DNA of 64,000 bases from positions 62,001-126,000 of the forward strand of contig BCIO01000003.1 in NCBI GenBank assembly GCA_001599975.1. Reading direction: 5' to 3'. This document shows, one piece after another, positions 26,160 through 44,543 of this stretch. The notes beneath the pieces were generated by a model that saw only the letters and a program-made list of their open reading frames with translations, did no database searches and was not told the DNA's origin. Every line of letters starts with the position of its first letter. Position 1 is the first letter of the stretch. The DNA is from Cystobasidiopsis lactophilus. Its lineage: Eukaryota; Basidiomycota; Agaricostilbomycetes; Agaricostilbales; Chionosphaeraceae. A program made the position numbers and the translations under genes.

Positions 26160-26981
26160 TGTTCACCGGAGCGGAGCCGAAAAGTTTATGCGGCATGTCA
26201 ACTTCTTGAATCGCTGCCGCACTCTTGCAGCCGAACAAGTGGTTCATGGGCGACCATCGTGTCGCTTGACCAGCATGAAGCAGCGAGAATCAGAGCTACG
26301 AGACGACACAAGAGCAATGGACCGCGTCGCGCCACCGATTGGCGCTGCTCCCTTTCATGCTTTCGGCTGGCTGCTCCTGGATCCCTTGCTGCCTGGCTCG
26401 TGCTGCTCGCGCCACTAGATTACTGTCTCGGCGCCCATTGTCTGCCCAAAGCCACCCCCTCACAGTCTGCCTATTGTCTGCTTCGAAAGCCGACCAGGGA
26501 CCGGCTTGCTGTCTGCTGACTCTATGGCACGCGAGCGAGCTTTTCTCCTGCGGCCACATTTCACATTCCAGTGTTCTGGAACCTGTCTTCATGTGTATTG
26601 AGTTTGTCCGAAGGCACTGCACAGCTGGTGGCGAAGGCAAAAATTCAAACTTCTCCAACCGCTTTTTGTCTCTCGCCACCCTCTTCGTCCAGACTGACCC
26701 CTCCGCCTTCCATACTGGCGAATAACAATTTTACAACTGCAAACAATATGTTTTGCTCAGAAAGCGGCGTCCTTGGCTGCGCTTCGCTTCCAACGGCTGG
26801 GGCTTGTGTGAAGGTTCAAGTGGCTTATTGTCCCGGCTTCCTCTTGGCCTGTCCCTCCAACGGTTTTTCTCGAGTCAAAATTGCTATCAAAATCCCGGCA
26901 CAGCACTCTTGCTCCTCCACCACCGACTTTCTTCTCTCTTCGCCCCGCTCCACTCTCTGGCGGCACCCTTCAGTCCTTCAA
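26160..26981 (+). repeat. 5'-flank copy A of the RING-gene module
   Basis: This stretch is repeated in reverse orientation at about 38212-39022 and 42070-42890, each time immediately upstream of a RING-gene copy. Shared blocks include the AATCGCTGCCGCACTC-type segment, the 26270-26420 region and the last 200 bp before the gene start. It contains no supported ORF of its own and probably carries the RING-gene promoter. Confidence 0.75.
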
Positions 26982-27740
26982 AATGTCGGGCGAGCAGCAA
27001 CTCACGACAGATGACACTCCCAACATTCCAATGACATCTGTAGCTCTGCATGACGAAACGGCTCGGCGAACGTTGAACGCTGTTGGCTTCCAGTTGATAA
27101 ATTTTTCCTTTCGGACGGGAAAAGATTCCAGCCACACATGACTTCCTCATCCAGCTTCAGTAGATAGGTGTAAGGTCCTCCAGCCCGCAACCTGTATGTT
27201 TGATTGATCCACCTTCGCAGTGCCCGTTGGTGGTAGAAGAGGCCTGCACTCTTTACGAGAGCATCGTCAAATACAAAGTGCCTGAATTTGATGCCGTAGG
27301 TCTGTCTAGTGCATGCGTCGTCCTGCCAATTGTCGTCAATCCGGGACAATGCCGTGGAGACCGGACTGGAAGCAAAGGGGCCTCCCTCTGCCCTGTCCTC
27401 TGCGCAGGGAAGGAGTTCTTCGGAGCTTGTTGTTCTGAGTAAGACTGGGTACGGATGTGTCTGTTTGTGAAAGGTCTTGGTCAGAAGCGGCGGCGTAGCT
27501 GGGATGGCGAGGAGCGGTGGTCGGCCTGTTCAATGATGACATGCTTACCTGCTTTCGGGCAGACTTCCATTTGGGCTACCGAAAAAACTGTGGTGCTCTT
27601 GAAAAGTATGACCGTATTCTGCTGGCCCGCACCGGGGCCTTCAAGAGGCCCTTCGACGTCGCGTTCGACACAGCTTCGAACGATCAAGAGGCAATGGATC
27701 TCGAGTCAGTGGATACCCACTCTCTACGTCCATTTCATAT
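26982..27740 (+). pseudogene. RING-finger gene copy A, decayed
   Basis: Homologous to the RING genes at 36784-38211 and 40646-42069 in their N-terminal exons. It opens MSGEQQLTTDD and keeps the HDETARRTLNAVGFQL block that matches the family's HDxxARRxL segment, the CPLVVEEACTLYESIV exon, the long structured intron (27296-27562) and the exon reading GALEKYDRILLA to QEAMDLE. It has an early in-frame stop in exon 1 (after FLIQLQ) and no RING or C-terminal exons: the 3'-flank repeat follows directly. It is therefore a broken copy. It is in inverted orientation to the two others and lies in the arm of the inverted duplication that keeps the intact MET8. Confidence 0.72.
27296..27562 (+). repeat. 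Splice-bounded intronic element, copy A
   Basis: 267 bp, starting GTAGGTCTGTCTAG and ending CTTACCTGC-TTTCGG-GCAG. The ends coincide with the splice sites of the RING-gene intron. It shares a CCTCCCTCTGCCCTG core, a TGGTACGGAT-type block and a TGATGACATG block with four other copies. The last 14 bases can fold as CUGCU-UUCG-GGCAG, so the AG acceptor sits in a tetraloop hairpin. Confidence 0.82.
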
Positions 27741-28474: not shown

Positions 28475-29419
28475 CTACGATCTGAGGCGAACGTGCTTGG
28501 TGTAAGCCAGCATGGCACCGACTCCTAGCCCGACGCCCAGGAGCACCGAAGGCCAGTCGAAACTTTTCCACCGCTGGTCCACCCACTTGCCCGCCTTGAG
28601 CCTGGCTTGGGCGAGTGGCGAACCACCTTTGATTTCCTCCAGTGTGACCACTCTGCCTTCTTCCCACCCATCCAGCACCATCTTCCTCCCAGCCGGAGTC
28701 AGCTGGCACAGATCGTCCAGAGACCAGGCGTCCGTTACGCGAATCATCCAGGCCATCCGCTTCTTTCCCTCTTCGGCTTGTGGCACTTTTGCACGCAGCT
28801 CTTCCCGAAGCAGCCCCATTTGCTCAATGGCCAGGCCGACATTGGCCGGGAGAGAGCCTTCAATGCGCCGCCGAATCCGATTGGCCAAGCGAGGGGACGA
28901 TCCGTTGGTAGAAACCATGATCTGGAGCGGGCCTCTCTTGATCACCGAGCCGAAGTAGAAGTCGCAAAGCGGCGGCACGTCGGCGACGTTGACTGGTATC
29001 TTCAAACTCTTGCAGCGCTCCCAAATGGCTCTAGAGATCTCAGAGTCGTCCAGGGCCGTCAACACCATATCCGGTTGCTCGCCAGGAGCACCAGAGTCGA
29101 GCAGGTCTAAGGAAGGGTCGTAAAGCCGGTCGACATGTTTGATGCCAAATCTGGCGACTTGAGAAGGATCCTTTAAGCGAAACCGAACTTCCTCGTTCAG
29201 GCCGCTGCCTGGGCAGATGACAGTGACTTGGGGCGTGGCTGTAGCAGGATCGAAAGCGACCAAGACGGATCGAATGCGGTCAGCCGCAACATTGCCGCCG
29301 CCAACAATGAGCACGCGGCGGAGCTTGAGCTGCCAGGCCAAGATCAACGAACCCGAGTCGCTGATGTCTGGGAAACCGCCCTCGCCCATGCTGAGTGGCT
29401 GCCAGCCTCCAAAACGCAT
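28475..29419 (-). CDS. MET8: Siroheme synthase (precorrin-2 dehydrogenase / ferrochelatase)
   Basis: Converts precorrin-2 to sirohydrochlorin with NAD+ and inserts Fe2+ to make siroheme, the cofactor of sulfite (and, in fungi that assimilate nitrate, nitrite) reductase. The 314-aa frame has no intron, unusual in this window. Landmarks: SLILAWQLKLRRVLIVGGGNV with the Rossmann GGG; VICPGSGLNEEVRF; TALDDSEISRAIWERCKSL in the dehydrogenase region; VNVADVPPLCDFYFGSV; TNGSSPRLANRIRRRIE; and the helical C-terminal domain with WMIRVTDAWSLDDL. A ~20-residue hydrophobic segment (VLLGVGLGVGAMLAY) lies at the C-terminus, so the enzyme may be membrane-tethered. The ATG at 29419 is preferred over the upstream non-ATG extension. 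A decayed second copy lies at 39100-39999. Confidence 0.93.
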   Translation of the reverse strand: MRFGGWQPLSMGEGGFPDISDSGSLILAWQLKLRRVLIVGGGNVAADRIRSVLVAFDPATATPQVTVICPGSGLNEEVRFRLKDPSQVARFGIKHVDRLYDPSLDLLDSGAPGEQPDMVLTALDDSEISRAIWERCKSLKIPVNVADVPPLCDFYFGSVIKRGPLQIMVSTNGSSPRLANRIRRRIEGSLPANVGLAIEQMGLLREELRAKVPQAEEGKKRMAWMIRVTDAWSLDDLCQLTPAGRKMVLDGWEEGRVVTLEEIKGGSPLAQARLKAGKWVDQRWKSFDWPSVLLGVGLGVGAMLAYTKHVRLRS

Positions 29420-30124
29420 TCTCAATGCCAAAAAATCTTGGATGTCGTCGACATCCCGCGGCTACGGCTCATCCGGTTTCGCGCTCGTCCCCCCTTTTTT
29501 GCGGCTTGACCCACAACGGGTGACTTCGTTCAGAACCGCCCAGACAGAGCCAGTGTGTAGTCCAGCTGCGATTGCGCTCCGCAAGACTGGCCCCAGCTAC
29601 GAAGTACGCGCCCAGTGTGATCCCCTGCTTTGCCACTCTCAGATCCCCTCTTGGGTGCGGGCGCGGGCGCGGGCCTGTCTTCTGGATTTGACTGTTCCTT
29701 CCACTCTGTTGCCTATCTTAGCCTTGCACATCCTCCAAGCTTGCTCAGACTCTGCCTTGCCACTGACCGTGTTCCTCTTTCACCTTGCCTTGAACGGTTG
29801 CCTCTTCTATCGGAAGAGCCAAGTTTTGTCCACAACAACCCCGCAGGTGCTGCTGTTTGCTCACAGCAAGGCGGTGGCGTGTCTCAGGCTTGGCGCTTTC
29901 CAACGGTCCAAAGCTTGCGGAATTACCGGCCGTCTCTTCGCATGCTGTTTCGGTACCCCTCTCCGCCAACGGCTTCGAGTCATTTTTCACACTACAAAAA
30001 CGGCAAAAGTTGGCTTGCTCTTGCTCCACCACCTCTCTCTCTCTACACTTATCGTCTGCCAACCCTACCAGTACTCCCAGCTCTCACAGCAATCAAGTGA
30101 TCATTCGCTGTCTTTTTTTCGAGA

Positions 30125-30391
30125 GTAAGCTTGTCTAGAATTTGTTAAGGCGCACCACACTGTCTGCATCCCGAACTGTTCCGAGGACGTTGGTCCAGAA
30201 GCAAAGTAGTCCTCCCTCTGCCCTGCCCTCTGCGAGACAACGAACCTCTCGGGGTCGTTCTACCTCGGAAGACTTGGTACGGATGTGTCACTCTGTGGAA
30301 GTCTGAAAGAGTCGGATACGGGGGTTTTGGCTGCAGAGAAGAGGCTGGCAGTTCTTATTCTATGATGACATGCTTACCTGCTTTCGGGCAG
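30125..30391 (+). repeat. Splice-bounded element, copy D1
   Basis: 267 bp, GTAAGCTTGTCTAGAATTTG to CTTACCTGC-TTTCGG-GCAG. Closest to the copy in the RING gene at 40.6-42.1 kb, sharing the CTAGAATTTGTTAAGGCG start, CCTCGGGGTCGTT and TGGAAGTCTG blocks. It has the same 3' UUCG hairpin. No recognisable exon flanks it. Confidence 0.8.
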
Positions 30392-30540: not shown

Positions 30541-30797
30541 GTAAGTGATGTCTAGACGCGGCGTACCATGCCCCTCTATCATCCTCTCCTGCCGTCGAGA
30601 CTGGCGACGAAGCAGATCACGCCTTCCTCTGCCTTGCCTCTGCGACGGAGACCACCCCCTCGAGGGTCCTTTCCTGAGTACGTCTGGTACGGAGAAACCC
30701 TCTGTGGAAGGCCGGTCGACACGGTGGGAGTGAGGTGGCAGAGAAGAGCGGGCGGCCCCAGGATTGATGATGACATTGCTTACCTGCCTTCGGGCAG
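30541..30797 (+). repeat. Splice-bounded element, copy D2
   Basis: 257 bp, GTAAGTGATGTCTAGA to CTTACCTGC-CTTCGG-GCAG. The 3' hairpin here reads CUGCC-UUCG-GGCAG: the U-G closing pair of the other copies is C-G, a pairing-preserving change. It shares the CCTCTGCCTTGCCTCTGCG, CTGTGGAAGG and TGATGACAT blocks. No recognisable exon flanks it. Confidence 0.8.
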
Positions 30798-36783: not shown

Positions 36784-38211
36784 TTAGACGGTGGCCGAAA
36801 GCGGCTTTTGAGCGCCACCGAAGGCAAGGCGGAGAAGTTGACGCAAGATTTGATAGGTACTCGCGTCCTGTAGTAGGGTGGCATCGGCAGACTGGTGATT
36901 GGGCCGAGGTGGAAGCTCGACGGGTTGACCGGTTGCCAAAGCCACCATTTGCGTTTGCAGGACAGCCAATGCTTCGCCTTGTCTCACAAGGATCTCCTTC
37001 ATTGTCGGAGGGCGCCCGTGCTCGTTGTCACCGCGAGTCCTCTTCGCCTGGACGCTCACGCTTTACCTTGAGAACCAAATGATACAGCTACAGAAAGGGG
37101 ACTCACTCGGTGATATGCAGCGATGTAGGCGATTCGGATGTTCTTTGGTGTGAGAGTCGGAGACTCGATCCGGCACGAAGAACACCGATAAAACTGCAAA
37201 ATTGTGAGCGAGAATTTGAAGCTAGAGAAGAGCGACAAACCTGGGAGCCGTCTAGTCTGACACCAGCTCGGGCAATATGAGTAGAACAGTGCTGAATGGG
37301 GCGCGGAGGCAAGTCGAATGCAAAGAGGGTTGCTAAAAGGGGAGAGCCGCTCACGGTGTGCCCACAGTTCGCATAGCCGACTGGATCGGTGATGAGATCC
37401 CAGCAAATATCGCACTCAAGGCTTGAAAATGATGCCAGTGAGCATGGGCTTGCAAAAGAGAGGGTCGGCGACCTCACTGGACATCCAGATTGTCATTGGG
37501 ATCTGGAGGAGGGGACGTGACGAGCTCGTACGGTCTCTTGAGATTTTGAAGGCGAACTTGAGCAATCCGATTGTACTTCTCGATGGCTTCAATAGTCTTT
37601 TCACTGGTCCACAGGCGGCTCTGCCCGAAAGCAGGTAAGTGTCGTCATGAAGCTAAAGGCCGCCCGCTCTTCTCCTCCCACCGCCATGACTGCTTCAGTT
37701 GACCTTCCACAAAAGGGCCGTTCGTACCAAGTCCACCTCCAAGAAGGACCCAAAAGGGCTGCCTGCTCTTTGTATCGGACAGGGCAGAGGAACGACTGCC
37801 TATGCTTCACCGCCACCATCCACAGCCACAGGTCGGGGACTCGATGCTTGGTTCGCCCGGCTCTAGACAACTTACGATGTCATAGGTAGGTCCCAGTGCA
37901 TGCTTCACGAAGGACTCGAAGTACATCCGAGCCTCCTCTTCGACGAGCGGGCACTGTTTCGAAAACTCTTGAATCGCGTATGCCAGGTTCATTAGCACAA
38001 TGCTCACTCCTAAGTGTGAGAGGAGGTCGAAGTATTCGGAGGTGGAAGGCGCTCTCTGGCCAAAGTGGAAGTCGAAGAAACCGTTGACCGGAAACCCAAT
38101 GTAATTCAGTCCGCGACGGGCGGCCTTGTCGTGCATCTGGCGGTAATTGATGGGACTGACGTATCCAGACGAGCGGTAGGTGCCTCTGGACGAAGTCGAC
38201 ACAATCGACAT
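36784..38211 (-). CDS. RING-finger protein, copy B (RING-H2-like variant)
   Basis: Probable E3 ubiquitin-ligase-like protein. Exon 1 is 38008-38211 (68 codons from MSIVSTSSRGTYR). The second exon reads CPLVEEEARMYFESFVKHAL. The long structured intron 37621-37875 follows, then an exon reading SRLWTSEKTIEAIEKYNRIA. The RING reads CDICWDLITDPVGYANCGHT, then HCSTH, then after ~20 residues FYRCSSCRIESP. So the fourth zinc pair uses C-x2-H, where copy C has C-x2-C. The C-terminus has a helical LVRQGEALAVLQTQMVAL stretch and ends LRLAFGGAQKPLSATV. All exon phases I could check agree. The domain between N-terminus and RING is not recognised. Same strand as copy C; copy A is inverted and broken. Confidence 0.75.
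37621..37875 (-). repeat. Splice-bounded intronic element, copy B
   Basis: 255 bp intron of RING gene B, on the minus strand GTAAGTTGTCTAGAG to CTTACCTGC-TTTCGG-GCAG, with the shared TTCCTCTGCCCTGTCC core, TTGTGGAAGG and ATGACGACA blocks. It has the same 3' UUCG hairpin over the acceptor. Roughly four to five times longer than most introns in the window. Confidence 0.85.
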
Positions 38212-39022
38212 ACGGAAAGCTTGAAGGTGTCCGCCGCCGCCGAAGACAGTTGGAAGAAAGGCGGTGGTACAGGAGCAAGAGTGCTGTGTGGGGATTCTGA
38301 CAGCAACTTTGACTCGAAAAAAACCGTTGGAGGAACAGGTCAAGAGGAAGCGGGGACAATAAGCCACTTGAACCTTCAGACGAGCCCCAGCCGCTCGAAG
38401 CGAAGCGCAGCCAAGGACGCCGCTTTCTGGGCAAAACAGATTGTTTGCAGTCAGAAACTTGTCATTTGCCAGCATGGAAGGCGGAGGGGTCATTCTGGAC
38501 GAAGGGGGTGGCGAGAGACAAAAGGCGGTTGGAGAAGTTTGGATTTTTGGCTTCGCCACCTGCAGTGGAGTGCCTCGGGTAAACTCAATGCACATGAAGA
38601 CTCAATACACATGAAGACAGGTTCCAGAACACTGGAATGTGAAATATGGCCGCAGGAGAAAAGCTCGCTCGCGTGCCATAGAGTCAGGCTCAAGCAGACA
38701 GCAAGCTGGTCCCTGGTCGACTTTCGAAGCAGACAATAGGCAGAACATGAGGAGGTGGCTTTGGGCAGACAATGAGCGCCGAGAAAGTAATCTAGTGGCG
38801 CGAGCAGCACGAGCCAGGCAGCAAGGGATCCAGGAGCAGCCAGCCGAAAGCATGAAAGGGAGCAGAGACAATCCGTGGCGCGACGCGGCCCATTGCTCTT
38901 GATGTCGTCTCGTAGCTCTGATTCTCGCTGCTTCATGCTGGTCAAGCGACATGATGGTCGCCCATGGACCACTTGTTCGGCTGCACCAAGACGAAATCGA
39001 TTCAAGAAAGAGCTTGCCGCAT
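38212..39022 (-). repeat. 5'-flank copy B of the RING-gene module
   Basis: Reverse-complement match to 26160-26981 and direct match to 42070-42890. It abuts the start of RING gene B and ends just before the decayed MET8 copy. Blocks shared with copy C are nearly identical over long runs (for example around 38640-38900 and 42470-42740). Confidence 0.78.
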
Positions 39023-39099
39023 AACTCTTGGCTCCGCTCGACGAACAGCTTCGACTGGTTCTCGCATTCTTTGCCTTGCATTGCGTCAAGATAAATTGC

Positions 39100-39999
39100 T
39101 TCCAAAGATTCCGGCTCGTTGATCCTGGCCTGGCAACTCCACCGCTGCGTGCTCATGGTGGCGGCGGCGGCAATGTGCCAGCGGCTGACCTCATTCGCTC
39201 CGTCTTGGTCGCTTTCGATCCTGCTACAGCCACACCCTAAGTCACTGGCATATGCTCCGACAGCGGCCTGACCGAGGAAGTGCGGTTTTGCTTGAAGGAT
39301 CCTTCCCAAGCCGCAAGATTTGGCATCAACCAGTGGCATGTCGACCGGCCCTACGATCCTTCGCTAGACGTGCCCGACTCTGTTACTTGTGAAGAGCTAC
39401 CAGAAATGGTGATGACTGCACCGGACGAAGCGGACATCGCTAGAGCCATTTGGGAGCGCTGCAAGAGTTTGAAGATACCAGTCAACGTCGCCGACGTGCC
39501 ACCGCTTTGCGACTTCTGCTTCGGCTCGGTGGTGAAGAGAGGCCTGCTCCAGATCATGGTTCCCACCAACGGGTCGTCCCCTCGCTTGGCCAATCGGATT
39601 CGGCGACGCATTGAAGGCGCTCTCCCGGCCAACGTCGACCTGGCCATCGAGCAAATGGGGCTGCTCCGGGAAGAGCTGCGTGCAAAAGCGCCCGAGGCTG
39701 AAGCTGGAAAGAAGCCGATGGCCTGGATGATTCGCGTGACGGACGCCTGGTCTCTGGACGATCTGTGCCAGCTGACTCCGGCTGGAAGGGAGATGGTGCT
39801 GGATGGGTGGAAAGAAGGCAGAGTGGTCACACTGGAGGACATCAAAGGTCTTTCGCCACTCGCTCAAGCCAGGCTCAAGGCGGGCAAGTGGGTGGACCAG
39901 CGGAGGAAAAGTTTCGACTGGCCTTCGGTGCTCCTGGGTTTCGGGCTAGGAGTCGGTGCCATGCTGGCTTACACCAAGCACCTTCGCCTTCGATCATAG
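39100..39999 (+). pseudogene. Decayed second copy of MET8
   Basis: The open part 39280-39999 is very close to the C-terminal 240 residues of the intact MET8 at 28475-29419 (VNVADVPPLCDFCFGSV, TNGSSPRLANRIRRRIE, WMIRVTDAWSLDDL all kept). Upstream, homology continues to about 39100 but the Rossmann glycine motif is out of frame, the codon matching Gln before VTVICPG is TAA, and the first ~25 codons are missing. The NAD-binding half is therefore lost. The C-terminal half has stayed largely conserved, so decay is either recent or that part is still used. It lies in inverted orientation to the intact gene and is part of the large inverted duplication. Confidence 0.85.
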
Positions 40000-40013
40000 C
40001 TGGCTCCACACCT

Positions 40014-40362
40014 ATGGGCTCCATCGGTTCGCTAGCGCCGGACTTCGTAGCGCAAGACATGGTTGCCCGTGCTGTGTCGAAAGTCGATGAGTCTGTTCAA
40101 TTCCTACAGGCCGACTGTCCCCATGTACTTAACATTTCTAAACAGATCGAATGCACGTACTGCTAGGCTTCATCCGTCAAGATCCGACCGGGCGCCATCC
40201 ATGCTCCCACTCGCCATTCTCTGCTGCCTTCTCGAACACCCTTTTGGTGGCATCATCTACACAGGTCAAACAGAAAGATTCTTGGCAAGTACAGCATTTG
40301 TGGCCGAAGGTTGCGCAAAGGTCTCTCAGGGGATAGGCAGCTGGGATGCAATCAGGCAGTGA
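40014..40362 (+). CDS. Second copy of the small MET8-linked gene
   Basis: Exons 40014-40090 and 40146-40362 would encode 97 residues with the same first-exon length and splice phase as the gene at 27903-28460. It starts MGSIGSLAPDFVAQDMV and keeps RTARLHPSRS and LAILCCLLEHPFGGIIY. After that point the two proteins differ completely and this one stops earlier. It starts 14 bp past the end of the decayed MET8. Either a diverging duplicate or a remnant; function unknown. Confidence 0.38.
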
Positions 40363-40645: not shown

Positions 40646-42069
40646 CTAGACGGACTCTGGAATGCGTTTGCGAGCACCGCCAAAGCCCATACGCAAGAGG
40701 TGGAGCAGGGTCTGCGACACGTTGGCATCGGCGAGGAGGGTCGGGTCAGCTGGCGTAGCTGCCTGCTGCTGGCCGACAGGTGGCGAGAGGGCGAGTATTT
40801 GAGCTTGCAGCGTGGCGAGCTCATCGCACACATGCAGCAAGACGTCCTTGCGCGTCATTGTAGAACCTCTCGCACGTTTGCGCTGAATCCAATTGCTCGT
40901 TAGGGGTGTTAGGAAAGGGATGAAGGAGGCAGACTCACCGCATTGAGCTCCACCAAGTTGGCCAACCGGATATTCTTCGGAACAAGCACAGTCGAGTCCT
41001 TGTTGCACAATGAGCAGCGGTAGACCTGATGCAAATTCATCAGCAGAGCGTCATCTATATCGAAAGGCAAGGCTCACCGGGGGCTGTTTGGGCAGTAAGT
41101 TGCCATAGCGGTCGGCCGGCCAACGTCGAGGTTGCGGTTGCGGATGAATGCAGCTCCTGCAGTACTGAGGATGACAAAATCAGTACACTGGATTTGAAAA
41201 GAACGGAAGGGGCAAGCAGACTGTGTGGCCACAGAACGGGAAGCCGACAGGTTCCTTGAGGTCATCACGGCAGATGTAGCACTCCAGCCTAACGACCGGG
41301 TCGTCAATACTTGTAAGCGGCTGTTGGGCTAGCGAGAGTGACCATCGACTCACTCAAGATCTAAAGCTTCTTGATCTTTCGACGCGTCTTCCAGGGCGTC
41401 CTCCAAAGGCCTCTTGGAAGCGGTGACAGCAACTTCAAAAACCCGATCATACTTTTGCAGAGCGCCAACGGCCTTCACGCCAGTCCAAATGGATGTCTGC
41501 CCGAAAGCAGGTAAGCATGTCATCATAGAAAAAGAACGGCCGCCTCTTGTCTCCGCCCTACCCCCATGACCGCTTCTTCCAGACTTCCACAAAATGCCAC
41601 ACCGTGCCGAGTCTTCCAGAGTAAACGACCCCGAGGGGTTCGTTCCCCCGCAGCGGACAAGACAGAGGGAGGGTTACTTTGCTTCTGGACTGACGTCCCC
41701 GGCCACAGTTCGGAACATCGATAGTCTGGTACGCCTTTACAAATTCTAGACAAACTTACGCAGTTGAGAGTGGGCAGTGCATGCTTCATGATGCAGTCGA
41801 AAAGTTCGCGTGCCTGTTCTTGCACAAATGGGCACTGGGGCCGTTGCATCAGTACAAGAGATGGAACACATGAAGACAAAACGTACTCCCAGCAGCGTCA
41901 GCTCCTGGATAAAATGGTGCGGTTGTGGGTTGTTTTGAGGGCCGAAGACAAAGAACGAGTCGACATCAAATCCCTTCGAAGCAAGCACCCGACGGGCTGT
42001 TGCGTCGTGGAGAGCTGAAGATCTTTTGACAGGCTTGGCCGTGGGAGCAGACGATTCTTCAGTCGGCAT
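40646..42069 (-). CDS. RING-finger protein, copy C (C3HC4)
   Basis: Probable E3 ubiquitin-ligase-like protein. Seven exons (41887-42069, 41760-41834, 41354-41496, 41222-41288, 41078-41164, 40939-41025, 40646-40882) sum to 293 codons (292 aa). It begins MPTEESSAPTAKPVKRS and shares HDATARRVL, CPFVQEQARELFDCIMKHAL and ALQKYDRVFE blocks with copies A and B. The RING reads CYICRDDLKEPVGFPFCGHT, then YCRSCIHP, then VYRCSLCNK, a complete C3HC4 pattern. A short helical C-terminal region (LLHVCDELATLQAQILAL) ends in LLRMGFGGARKRIPESV, matching copy B. The N-terminal part is not a known domain to me. The long structured intron (41497-41759) sits at the same position as in copies A and B. Confidence 0.82.
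41497..41759 (-). repeat. Splice-bounded intronic element, copy C
   Basis: 263 bp intron of RING gene C on the minus strand, GTAAGTTTGTCTAGAATTTG to CTTACCTGC-TTTCGG-GCAG. It contains CCTCCCTCTGTCTTGTCC, CCTCGGGGTCGTT and CTATGATGACATG blocks shared with the other copies. The 5' GTAAG is complementary to the CTTAC lying 14 nt before the 3' end, so the two intron ends could pair. Confidence 0.87.
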
Positions 42070-42890
42070 TGTGAGAGTCGATGACTGCAGCGGTGAGGAA
42101 AAAGCGGCCCAGAGAGAGGACGGTGGTGCGGGAGCAAGAGTGCTTTGCGGAGACTCTGATAGCAATTTTGACTCGACAAAAGCCGTTGGAAGAACAAGGT
42201 CAAGAGGAAGCGGGGACAATAGGCCACTTGAACTTTCACGAGCCCCAGCCGTTGGAAGCGAAGCGCAGCTAAGGACGCTTCTTTCTGACCGAAACCTATT
42301 GTTTGAACCCACGCAGTTGGCATTGTTGAGCATGGAAGGCGGTGGGGTCATTCTGGAGGGAAGGGGGTGGCGAGAGACAAAAGGCGGTTGGAAAAGTCTG
42401 AATATTTGGCTTCGCCACCAGCTGGGCAGTGCCTTCGGCTAAACTCAATGCACATGAAGACAGGTTCTAGAACACTGGAATGTGAAATGTGGCCGCAGGA
42501 GAAAAGCTCGCTCGCGTGCCATAGAATGAGCACACAGCAAGCTGGTCCCTGGTCGGCTTTCGAAGCAGACAATAGGCAAGCTGTGAGGGGGTGGCTTTGG
42601 GCTGACAATGAACGCCGAGACAGTAATCTAGTGGCGCGAGCAGCACGAGCCAGGCAGCAAGGGATCCAGGAGCAGCCAGCCGAAAGCATGAAAGGGAGCA
42701 GAGACAATCCGTGGCGCGACGCGAGCCAATTCTCCTGGTTTAATCTGGTACCTCTGATTCTCGCTGCTTCATGCTGGTCAAGCAACACGATGGTCGCCCA
42801 TGGACCACTTCTCCGCCAACAGCGTGGCGCAATCGATTCAAGAAGCAGCATGCCGCATAAACTTTTGGGCCGCGGTTTTCGCCGGAGCGA
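42070..42890 (-). repeat. 5'-flank copy C of the RING-gene module
   Basis: Direct match to 38212-39022 and inverted match to 26160-26981. Marks the outer end of the second arm of the inverted duplication. Confidence 0.78.
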
Positions 42891-43262
42891 CTCCCTTGCC
42901 TGCACGACGAATCAGCGAGCTAACAGAGCGACGTTAACGCATTCAAGTTCTTGCTATGGTGCGCGTAGACGGATGCCGTTCCCAAGAATCGTTCCTCTGC
43001 CTCAGTCATCCGCCCCTTTTCCTGCTTGTCCGCTTACGGTCCGCGTGGCTCGTGATTTACTGCTTGGCAACCCCTCCTGCTTGAGTGTCGGTCGTTGAAT
43101 AGGTAAAGAACCGATATGTTCATCCCTGCTGGCTGGACGGACGGACGCGCCTTAAATTGCACATCATCCTTGTTGTGATCTGCAATAATCCGTGTTGCGC
43201 GAATTTGCTGAATCTTCAATACGTATTCAAACGCTGCTTCTCCTTTTCTTCGGATACCGACG
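42891..43262. other. Promoter-side intergenic region of the secreted protein
   Basis: About 370 bp with no supported ORF; the last 60 bp are T/C-rich. Confidence 0.4.
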
Positions 43263-44543
43263 ATGATCTGGCCGGGCGCATTGGATTTGGCGGCAGCGGT
43301 TTCTGTGCTGGGCCTCCTGGCCCATGTTGCCGTCGCCCAAGAGCTGCAGCCTAGGGCAGCTGCTGTTCGAACGACGACCATCTATAAAACGAGGACCGTT
43401 GTAAAGCCGGTGACCACGACCAAGACCGGCCCGACTAGCTACGAAACTACGGTGCGCCGCTTCGATTCCCTGTCCTTTGGCAGTGGCTCACCTCTTTTTC
43501 TCTTGCTCACAAACAAAAACAAAACAGACACTGATTCGGCCGACTACGCGAACGGTCACCTCGCTCATCACCGTCCGGTTGCCCAGCTCCTCCTCCGCTC
43601 CTTCGTCTTCCAGCTCCGGCTCTCCATCCTCCGCCAGTGCCAGCTCGCCGTCGTCCAGCTCCACTGGCGCTCCCAGTTCCTCTTCGCCACCGTCCTCCAG
43701 CTCTGCTGCGTCCTCGACGCCTTCGTGCTCGGCGCCCCCGGCCAACGCCATTGCTTTCCAGCTCCAGCAAGCGTGGCAGAGCAGCTACGACCGCTACTGG
43801 GATGTCTTCCGGCGCTCTCTGGACGCGGCGCTGAGCACCTATTGGGTGCAGTGCGTGGGCGCGCTGTCGGGCGGGGCGTGCGGGGGGCCGGGGGCGTGCG
43901 CGCAGAGTTGCCGCTCTTGCCACCTCAACCCTTTCTGCCGGGAAGCGCCGTGCTACGAGGCTTGCAGCGTGCCGCACCCGCAGTGCGACGTGGGCGTCGA
44001 AGCTGGCTGCATGTCTGTCAACCCTGCGGCCCTGGGCCAGCCCGTGAACACCGAGCTGTGCGGCCAGTACACCACCCTCGTCCGCGGCGGCCTGGCCGCC
44101 TTGTGGACCGGGGGCCTCTCCAAGGTGCTCCCAGCCAAGTGCGAAGCGTACTACCTCCGACCGGCCATCGACTGCCGGTTTCGCCTGTCGCCACCTACCT
44201 GGCAACCGGATTCGGACTGGGGGCCGGCTTACGGCTGGCGGGACCCGGCGTTCGTCAGCTACTGGCAGTGGCACGACGAGTGTGCGCCGACTTGCACCAT
44301 CTTCAACGGCCGGGGCTTCCACTGGGAGCAGCCCGCGCACGCTTGGGGCTTCCAATGGGATCGGATCGGCCAGGCTGTAAAAAGACTCTTCCTCTCTGGT
44401 CTTATCCACATTTGCTCACGAGGTTTTGGCGACAGGTTCACGACGCCGAGTGCGGCCACCAATCGAACTGGAAGCCGGGCGGGACCTGCTATGCGTCTAG
44501 CCCATTGGGAGGTGGCGGCCTTGAAACTGGCCAGGAGCCGTAA
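43263..44543 (+). CDS. Secreted Cys-rich protein with Ser/Pro-rich stalk
   Basis: Three exons (43263-43451, 43528-44376, 44436-44543) give 382 codons (381 aa). A signal peptide is evident: [20 protein letters not shown], followed by [10 protein letters not shown]. Residues ~40-90 are Thr-rich. Then comes a ~60-residue run almost entirely of Ser, Pro and Ala, probably O-glycosylated. The C-terminal ~220 residues form a Cys-rich globular domain with regularly spaced cysteines ([39 protein letters not shown]) and many aromatics ([23 protein letters not shown]), ending after [16 protein letters not shown]. No GPI-anchor signal is obvious. I do not recognise the domain. It could be a cell-wall or effector-like protein; that is inference only. 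Confidence 0.8.

Follow-up and report, generated by a model that had tools for sequence, protein, structure and literature searches.

Five copies of an intron-like element lie in the 64,000-nucleotide stretch of DNA analyzed here (the window, positions 62001-126000 of contig C3 in a 22.1-Mb genome of eight contigs), and they raise the question of why an intron would remain recognizable from end to end in copy after copy. The original prediction proposed an introner-like mobile intron or a structured intronic RNA, with a duplicated intron as the plain alternative. All five predicted copies were found on the strands assigned to them, each running from GT to AG. They are listed below by window position, as are all coordinates given without a contig; "rod" denotes the predicted fold of the whole intron.

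41497..41759, minus strand: rod intron of 263 nt in the best-preserved RING gene of the window
37621..37875, minus strand: rod intron of 255 nt with a single-hairpin fold
27296..27562, plus strand: rod intron of 267 nt with a single-hairpin fold, in a RING gene with broken frames
30125..30391, plus strand: rod intron of 267 nt, intron 1 of the window array (a locus without a clear reading frame)
30541..30797, plus strand: rod intron of 257 nt, intron 2 of the window array, with a 12-bp P1 stem and a C-G closing pair in the P2 hairpin (both described below)

Pattern and DNA searches of the genome, which may miss remote copies elsewhere, located 14 copies on four of the eight contigs. The copies outside the window, all from these searches, are the following.

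C1:4174181-4174439, plus strand: copy C1
C2:76590-76826, plus strand: copy C2a
C2:76885-77118, plus strand: copy C2b
C5:97418-97684, plus strand: copy C5
C3:265416-265669, plus strand: copy at 265 kb of contig C3
C3:42166-42426, 42578-42841, 42955-43223 and 43369-43633, minus strand: four array copies at 42-43 kb of contig C3

All 14 copies start with GT and end with AG, and their pairwise likeness ranges from 47 to 96%. A search for CTTACCTGCYTTCGGGCAG that allowed up to three mismatches returned five matches, every one exact, compared with 0.03 expected. A model search over 16 stretches (176,963 bases) recovered the 14 copies, one of them split across a boundary, and added a weak match on the minus strand at C3:41871-41974 (11.6 bits, E 0.016). 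Situated downstream of the array of four copies, this match retains TTGTCTAGAGCTGG and has the look of a decayed relic from the element's 5′ end. For three near matches (C3:2330825, C3:199609 and C1:1489756), the full-length model reported nothing at E values up to 5, and a 3′ model gave one chance-level match (E 2.6). The 5′ end of the element, used as a genome pattern with up to three mismatches, yielded 78 matches versus 102 for the reversed control, with nothing convincing besides the known copies (one other match was inspected).

By its sequence signals, the element is a GT-AG intron of the U2 type. The five window copies (255-267 nt) end in CUUAC followed by CUGCY-UUCG-GGCAG, and the prediction of this 14-base terminal block in all five was confirmed by five exact matches. 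The pairing-preserving change at its closing pair was likewise as described, with U-G in four copies and C-G in 30541-30797. The 5′ end reads GTAAG in four of the five window copies and GTAGG at 27296, and the complementary CTTAC that had been noted sits directly before the last 14 nucleotides. This branch-site-like CTTAC is present in 13 copies and is replaced by CTGAC in one. The third place of the branch-site consensus is usually a purine, from which the T in CTTAC departs; AUGAC just upstream of CUUAC is an alternative branch-site candidate.

Eight copies at seven loci occupy one intron position of one RING-finger gene family, and the other six are found in arrays that look derived from the same family. 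The hosts on C1, C5 and C3 (265 kb) and those of window copies 41497 and 37621 share a phase-0 junction with a RING stretch downstream. Two of the window hosts were delimited.

40649..42069, minus strand: host RING-finger gene of copy 41497; spliced product of 292 residues, exons joined by hand
36796..38211, minus strand: host RING gene of copy 37621; approximate span, start codon placed by eye

RING Pfam models match the product of the 41497 gene at residues ~136 to 164 (one spliced product tested). The host of copy 27296 represents the same gene, its frames broken, and a RING was not found in it. The C2 host has a frameshift in exon 1, an exon end and element duplicated in tandem, and a RING that is not recognized. 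The reading frame and the phase-0 junction are present in five of the six host genes; the sixth is broken. In each of the six genes examined, retention of the element creates between one and four in-frame stops and, with lengths that differ modulo three, this led to the rejection of a coding sequence kept by alternative splicing. When the genome was searched with the 292-residue product, 23 matches were obtained. Twenty of them lie at the element loci named here; the other three (C6, C3:730 kb and C2:3.79 Mb) are confined to the RING region, within residues 113-163. Among the 23 matches of this single query with its limited candidate list, none revealed a family member lacking the element, and no protein relative of the RING product appeared at E 0.001 among 2263 candidates. 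The RING-finger family is fast-evolving. Neighboring introns in the host genes measure 48-71 nt (n = 11), and the predicted four- to fivefold excess in length is thus about right.

The array copies comprise 30125 and 30541 in the window and the four copies at C3:42-43 kb. The exons of the window array have no clear reading frame, a remnant of RING exon 3 lies 3′ of copy 30541, and RING-promoter-like stretches of 28-72 bases (E about 1e-4 to 1e-6) are located upstream of the arrays. In the second array (C3:42166-43633, minus strand), four elements of different subfamilies and repeated small exons are packed into 1.5 kb, a layout that suggests unequal recombination through the introns. A gene for a MET8-like siroheme synthase (28475-29461, minus strand) adjoins the window array. 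Extra copies of this gene, 88-91% alike, are found at 39107-40262 in the window, where the longest open frame is 252 residues versus 328, and at C3:44400-45435. The promoter-array-MET8 block is evidently duplicated. The DNA probably comes from a basidiomycete: among the best 120 of 1463 matches to the siroheme synthase gene, the top named species is Mixia osmundae (47% identity), followed by ascomycetes and smut fungi, and other matches reach up to 56% identity. The upstream regions of three window RING genes (26169-26939, 38253-39039 and 42111-42870) are 85-88% alike (82-88% for the promoters in a second comparison), compared with 56-70% for the exons and 70-71% for the rod introns of the same genes, and the promoters were therefore exchanged among the genes or kept apart from them.

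The two ends of the intron had been predicted to pair. The pairing is present, but its extent was understated: it runs for 8-13 pairs and leads on into a predicted fold that takes in the entire intron. In this first stem (P1), the first 10-14 nucleotides pair with a stretch ending in CUUAC, following the pattern GUAAG(N)UGUC with GACA(N)CUUAC, and the terminal hairpin (P2) follows with zero gap. An imperfect stem extends beyond P1, bringing the predicted pairs to 73-93 per copy, P1 included. The positions of P1 and P2 in window copies are as follows.

41749..41759, minus strand: 5′ arm of P1, GUAAGUUUGUC, at the 5′ splice site of copy 41497
41511..41521, minus strand: 3′ arm of P1, GACAUGCUUAC, in the branch-site region of copy 41497
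41497..41510, minus strand: P2 acceptor hairpin CUGCU-UUCG-GGCAG of copy 41497
37621..37634, minus strand: P2 acceptor hairpin of copy 37621
27296..27306, plus strand: 5′ arm of P1, GUAGGUCUGUC, of copy 27296
27538..27548, plus strand: 3′ arm of P1, GACAUGCUUAC, of copy 27296
27549..27562, plus strand: P2 acceptor hairpin of copy 27296
30784..30797, plus strand: P2 acceptor hairpin CUGCC-UUCG-GGCAG of copy 30541

The P1 arms, folded as local duplexes, form 8-13 pairs with energies of -5.4 to -18.1 kcal/mol. All five GUAAG:CUUAC pairs are made in the local duplexes of 11 of the 14 copies, four in 43369, two in C2a (which has CUGAC) and none in 37621. The best local duplex of 37621 adopts a different register, and its standard register (GUAAGUUGUC / GACACUUAC) appears only in the whole-intron fold. 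In whole-intron folds, the five pairs are complete in 12 copies, and four of the five are made in the other two. When five letters on each side were fixed and the rest shuffled, the local P1 duplex surpassed the shuffled arms at the 0.05 level in 8 of 14 copies. The GTAAG match alone is weak evidence because CTTAC also sits at the expected branch site. The inner arms of P1, with lengths read from the sequences, co-vary (3/3 in six copies, 2/2 in five, and 5/5, 5/6 and 1/0 in one each). The five-base-pair P2 stem forms in all 14 copies and holds the acceptor AG. In the C2 copies (CUGCC-UUAC-GGCAG and CUGCC-UUUCUU-GGCAG), the loop is altered and the stem is kept.

Six of the 14 minimum-energy folds (C1, C3:265 kb, C3:42955, 27296, 37621 and C2a) are clean rods, with a single hairpin and at least 0.99 of their pairs spanning the midpoint. 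The spanning fractions of the other eight are 0.40-0.73, including 0.68 for copy 41497, whose own minimum-energy fold has three hairpins. Only 3 of 800 random genomic 245-mers reach a spanning fraction of at least 0.95, and shuffled sequences with their ends kept average 0.40. None of the 14 antisense strands folds as a rod (highest spanning fraction, 0.69), and the sense folds are on average 18.5 kcal/mol more stable than the antisense folds. The energy z-scores are weak (mean -1.6, with five copies between -0.6 and 0.1; antisense mean -0.7, with C2b and C5 clearly lower in antisense than in sense) and are therefore not relied on. On balance, the comparison of predicted folds between strands speaks for selection on RNA and not on a DNA palindrome; a DNA inverted repeat or MITE was rejected in the absence of any antisense rod. 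In the upper rod of C1 and C5, AGUA lies opposite GAA, an arrangement noticed by eye that we take to be loop E / sarcin-ricin-like and that is not common to all copies.

Substitutions between the copies were examined for compensation. In an alignment of the 14 copies with 98 pairs, whose structure was derived from the same 14 sequences, 76% of the cells pair, compared with 71.2 ± 0.7% after shuffling and 39-49% when partners are slid. Double changes occur at 40 pairs versus 30.4 ± 3.2 in the shuffled controls. A stricter test used nine representatives, omitting both C2 copies and three near-duplicates; for each pair of sequences, the structure was taken from the other seven, and P1 and P2 were excluded. 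Where both partners had changed, 442 of 680 cells (65%) still pair, versus 30-42% in controls slid by -4 to +4; where one partner had changed, the figure is 656 of 1169 (56%) versus 33-41%. These cells are not independent, given that both directions were counted and the copies are related, but the slid controls carry equal relatedness. Held-out pairing fractions are 0.64-0.78 for the nine clusters versus ~0.4 when slid, with relatedness not controlled. The two C2 copies reach 0.52 and 0.57 versus 0.43-0.44, low values that indicate that the shared alignment does not carry the C2 copies. Across the aligned copies, the predicted fold is kept while the sequence has changed, and a fold kept in this way probably does a job.

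Conservation of the element was compared with that of the sequence around it. Among six host-gene copies (15 pairs), the mean identity of the element is 0.69, or 0.65 without its ends. In the same hosts, identity is 0.59 at the end of exon 1, 0.64 in exon 2 and 0.60 in exon 3 (15 pairs), and 0.72 in exon 4 (10 pairs). The flanking introns fall to 0.51 (intron 1, 15 pairs) and 0.52 (intron 3, 10 pairs), the level of shuffled sequences (0.50-0.56). Conversion between paralogs and unequal ages of the segments could inflate this contrast in identity, but not the compensatory-change result. In the array, the two introns differ at 26 of 522 positions and nearby non-coding DNA at 57 of 793 (p 0.13), a comparison that omits MET8 and its surroundings (66/1143, partly coding) and the stretch of the next exon (21/113), which was compared with a paralogous exon and not the closest one. 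The two array introns thus do not appear to evolve clearly more slowly than their surroundings.

These comparisons bear on the idea that a neutral intron was simply copied with its gene and that its likeness reflects common descent and conversion only. The recognizable hosts do belong to one family, conversion is visible, and the two array introns change about as fast as the DNA around them. However, a neutral duplicated intron is unsupported because the adjacent introns are random whereas the element keeps an identity of 0.69. The excess of compensatory double changes over the slid controls refutes this idea unless the alignment misleads, and we regard it as hardly credible. The original prediction had described a merely duplicated intron as one confined to duplicates of the RING gene and diverging neutrally; the former is nearly what was found, and the latter is not. 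Its alternative of a structured intronic RNA is supported by the compensatory changes, the strand-specific rod and the conservation against randomized flanking introns.

Movement of the intron itself, by introner- or stwintron-like insertion concentrated in one gene family, was suggested by the 14 copies on four contigs and by matches between array and RING-gene introns that stop exactly at the splice sites. In one case, the intron at C3:42578-42841 is 96.2% identical to window copy 41497-41759 up to the splice sites. Its flanks resemble those of the 30125/30541 locus, where the intron is 78-80% alike; overall likeness to that locus is 86% across the block C3:42166-42908 and 93% for the exon within it. 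An exchange limited to the intron took place, and gene conversion between existing homologous introns can explain it without insertion. Moreover, the element sits at one homologous position in one RING family, in 14 copies and not hundreds, and the genome DNA and pattern searches found none of the further copies in unrelated genes that the original prediction had raised. The introner-like reading is very improbable. A [D1,2] stwintron was rejected separately: it requires an outer G|GT, and a G precedes the donor in one of the 14 copies (the base is C at C2:76590).

To relate the fold to splicing, the accessibility of the splice signals was computed with 50-nt exon flanks. In the elements, the mean unpaired probability is 0.27 at the 5′ splice site, 0.34 at CUUAC and 0.10 at the acceptor AG, compared with 0.38 for the 5′ splice site and 0.42 for the acceptor AG in the 11 neighboring introns. 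In this prediction, only the acceptor is clearly buried; the mean for the 5′ splice site is little below that of the neighbors. The 5′ splice site is predicted to be mostly unpaired in 42166, 43369 and 37621, and CUUAC in 42955, 43369, 37621 and 41497. A "lock" on splicing would hold firmly at the acceptor but vary at the other two signals.

The best explanation, with a probability of about 0.5, is that the element is a conserved, structured spliceosomal intron that controls the splicing of its hosts. Selection would keep the intron as one long RNA rod, in which GUAAG...UGUC at the 5′ splice site would pair through P1 with GACA...CUUAC in the branch-site region, and P2, abutting P1, would hold the acceptor AG. 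With three splicing signals in or next to helices, removal of the intron would most likely be conditional. Because retention places stops before the RING domain, conditional removal would then set the amount of RING protein that each gene makes. The rod, the compensatory evolution, the strand specificity, the constant position within the family and the penalty for retention are read from DNA sequence; we infer that the spliceosome removes the intron and that the fold regulates this step rather than merely helping it. In a yeast library, splice sites buried in stems lower splicing, branch sites more than 5′ sites (PMC8496845).

The fold could instead help splicing by joining the intron ends rather than restraining it. 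It would then act as a zipper in constitutive splicing, with no regulation. A long intron among neighbors of only 48-71 nt (n = 11) might need such an aid, and yeast introns commonly carry zipper and downstream stems (PMC12350175). Both exon ends would be brought to a single helical junction by P1 and P2, and accessibility of the 5′ splice site is not much lower than in the neighbors. However, P1 contains the 5′ splice site and CUUAC and leaves a linker of 0, whereas yeast zipper stems leave a linker of 42-85 nt and are poorly conserved (PMC12350175). A shorter intron would be simpler, yet the length and core motifs have been kept. A purely constitutive aid is quite unlikely.

Alternatively, the intron may house an RNA with a function of its own. 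On this reading the product would be the excised rod, made linear by debranching, for instance a long hairpin for Dicer/Argonaute or a stable structured RNA; transcripts of the RING genes and arrays would serve as its hosts. Conservation of the element matches or exceeds that of exons 2 and 3, the arrays hold two or four copies with no clear frame in the window-array exons, and the broken hosts (27296 and C2) keep P2 entirely and P1 wholly or mostly. RNAi is likely present in the genome, in which Argonaute matches were found at four loci and RdRP matches at two.

C4:140606-141525, C4:543248-543964, C2:622712-623650 and C2:716120-717147: Argonaute-like loci
C5:2601328-2603389 and C1:1876930-1878586: RdRP-like loci

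Conversely, the rod has imperfections and its pairs have diverged from one copy to another, the strongest conservation falls on splice signals that a processed RNA would not need, and the hosts with broken frames may be too recent for decay to have set in, with the one weak model match resembling a decayed relic. The similar rates of the array introns and their surroundings weaken this reading on a short time scale. Rfam gave no match at the gathering score for the window with its five copies and, at a relaxed E-value for two copies, only matches far below the family cut-offs. A TGATGA in the element resembles a snoRNA C box but is located at the intron's 3′ end; a C/D snoRNA was rejected on this position and the lack of an Rfam match. 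Published fungal hairpin small RNAs are rarely intronic, Cryptococcus neoformans being the exception (PMC9757828). Taken together, a hosted functional RNA is possible, if somewhat unlikely.

A further, unlikely reading treats the whole intron as an RNA device in which the rod gathers the three splice signals in a condition-dependent manner and the arrays are RNA-dedicated loci acting in trans. If this were true, the 5′ splice site, branch site and acceptor would meet at one helical junction, the rod would be the feature worth keeping in a family whose proteins drift more quickly, and the arrays, without clear coding exons, would act by way of the RNAi machinery or by other means.

In fungi, conserved intron folds are difficult to establish, as introns diverge too fast to align; a 2025 yeast survey makes this point for zipper stems (PMC12350175). 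Here a single family supplies 14 copies that have diverged while compensatory changes maintain a fold along the intron, and control of splicing by a pre-mRNA structure that contains the splicing signals therefore becomes testable. No description of the element was found among the titles and abstract openings of the open-licence papers listed, which is no proof of absence.

Several known systems resemble the element in part. Mirtrons and long hairpin RNAs are likewise hairpins bounded by splice sites; animal mirtrons are shorter than the element, which measures ~220-255 nt without P2. In yeast, the zipper is poorly conserved, whereas the fold described here spans the whole intron and is conserved by compensation. 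The yeast downstream stem comprises at least 6 bp between branch point and acceptor; P2 embodies a similar idea with 5 bp (PMC12350175). Sister stwintrons and cropped introns of Hypoxylaceae also have inverse-complementary ends, and a hairpin joins their splice sites. However, they are nested or cropped and occur at new positions in different genes, in contrast to one family at one position here, and nine position-conserved introns tested in Hypoxylaceae gave no fold conservation (PMC8469720, PMC9024468). The (AC)m-(GU)n introns of zebrafish, as described in PMC9024468, similarly join their splice sites through a cross-intron fold built from dinucleotide repeats, none of which is seen at the ends of the element. 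Nonconventional and intermediate introns of euglenids share both paired ends and compensatory changes, and they pair positions +4 to +6 with -8 to -6, which in the element lie in P2 (PMC4770533). The element instead pairs from +1 onward, including +4 to +6, with the CUUAC region upstream of a separate P2, and does so within canonical GT-AG borders.
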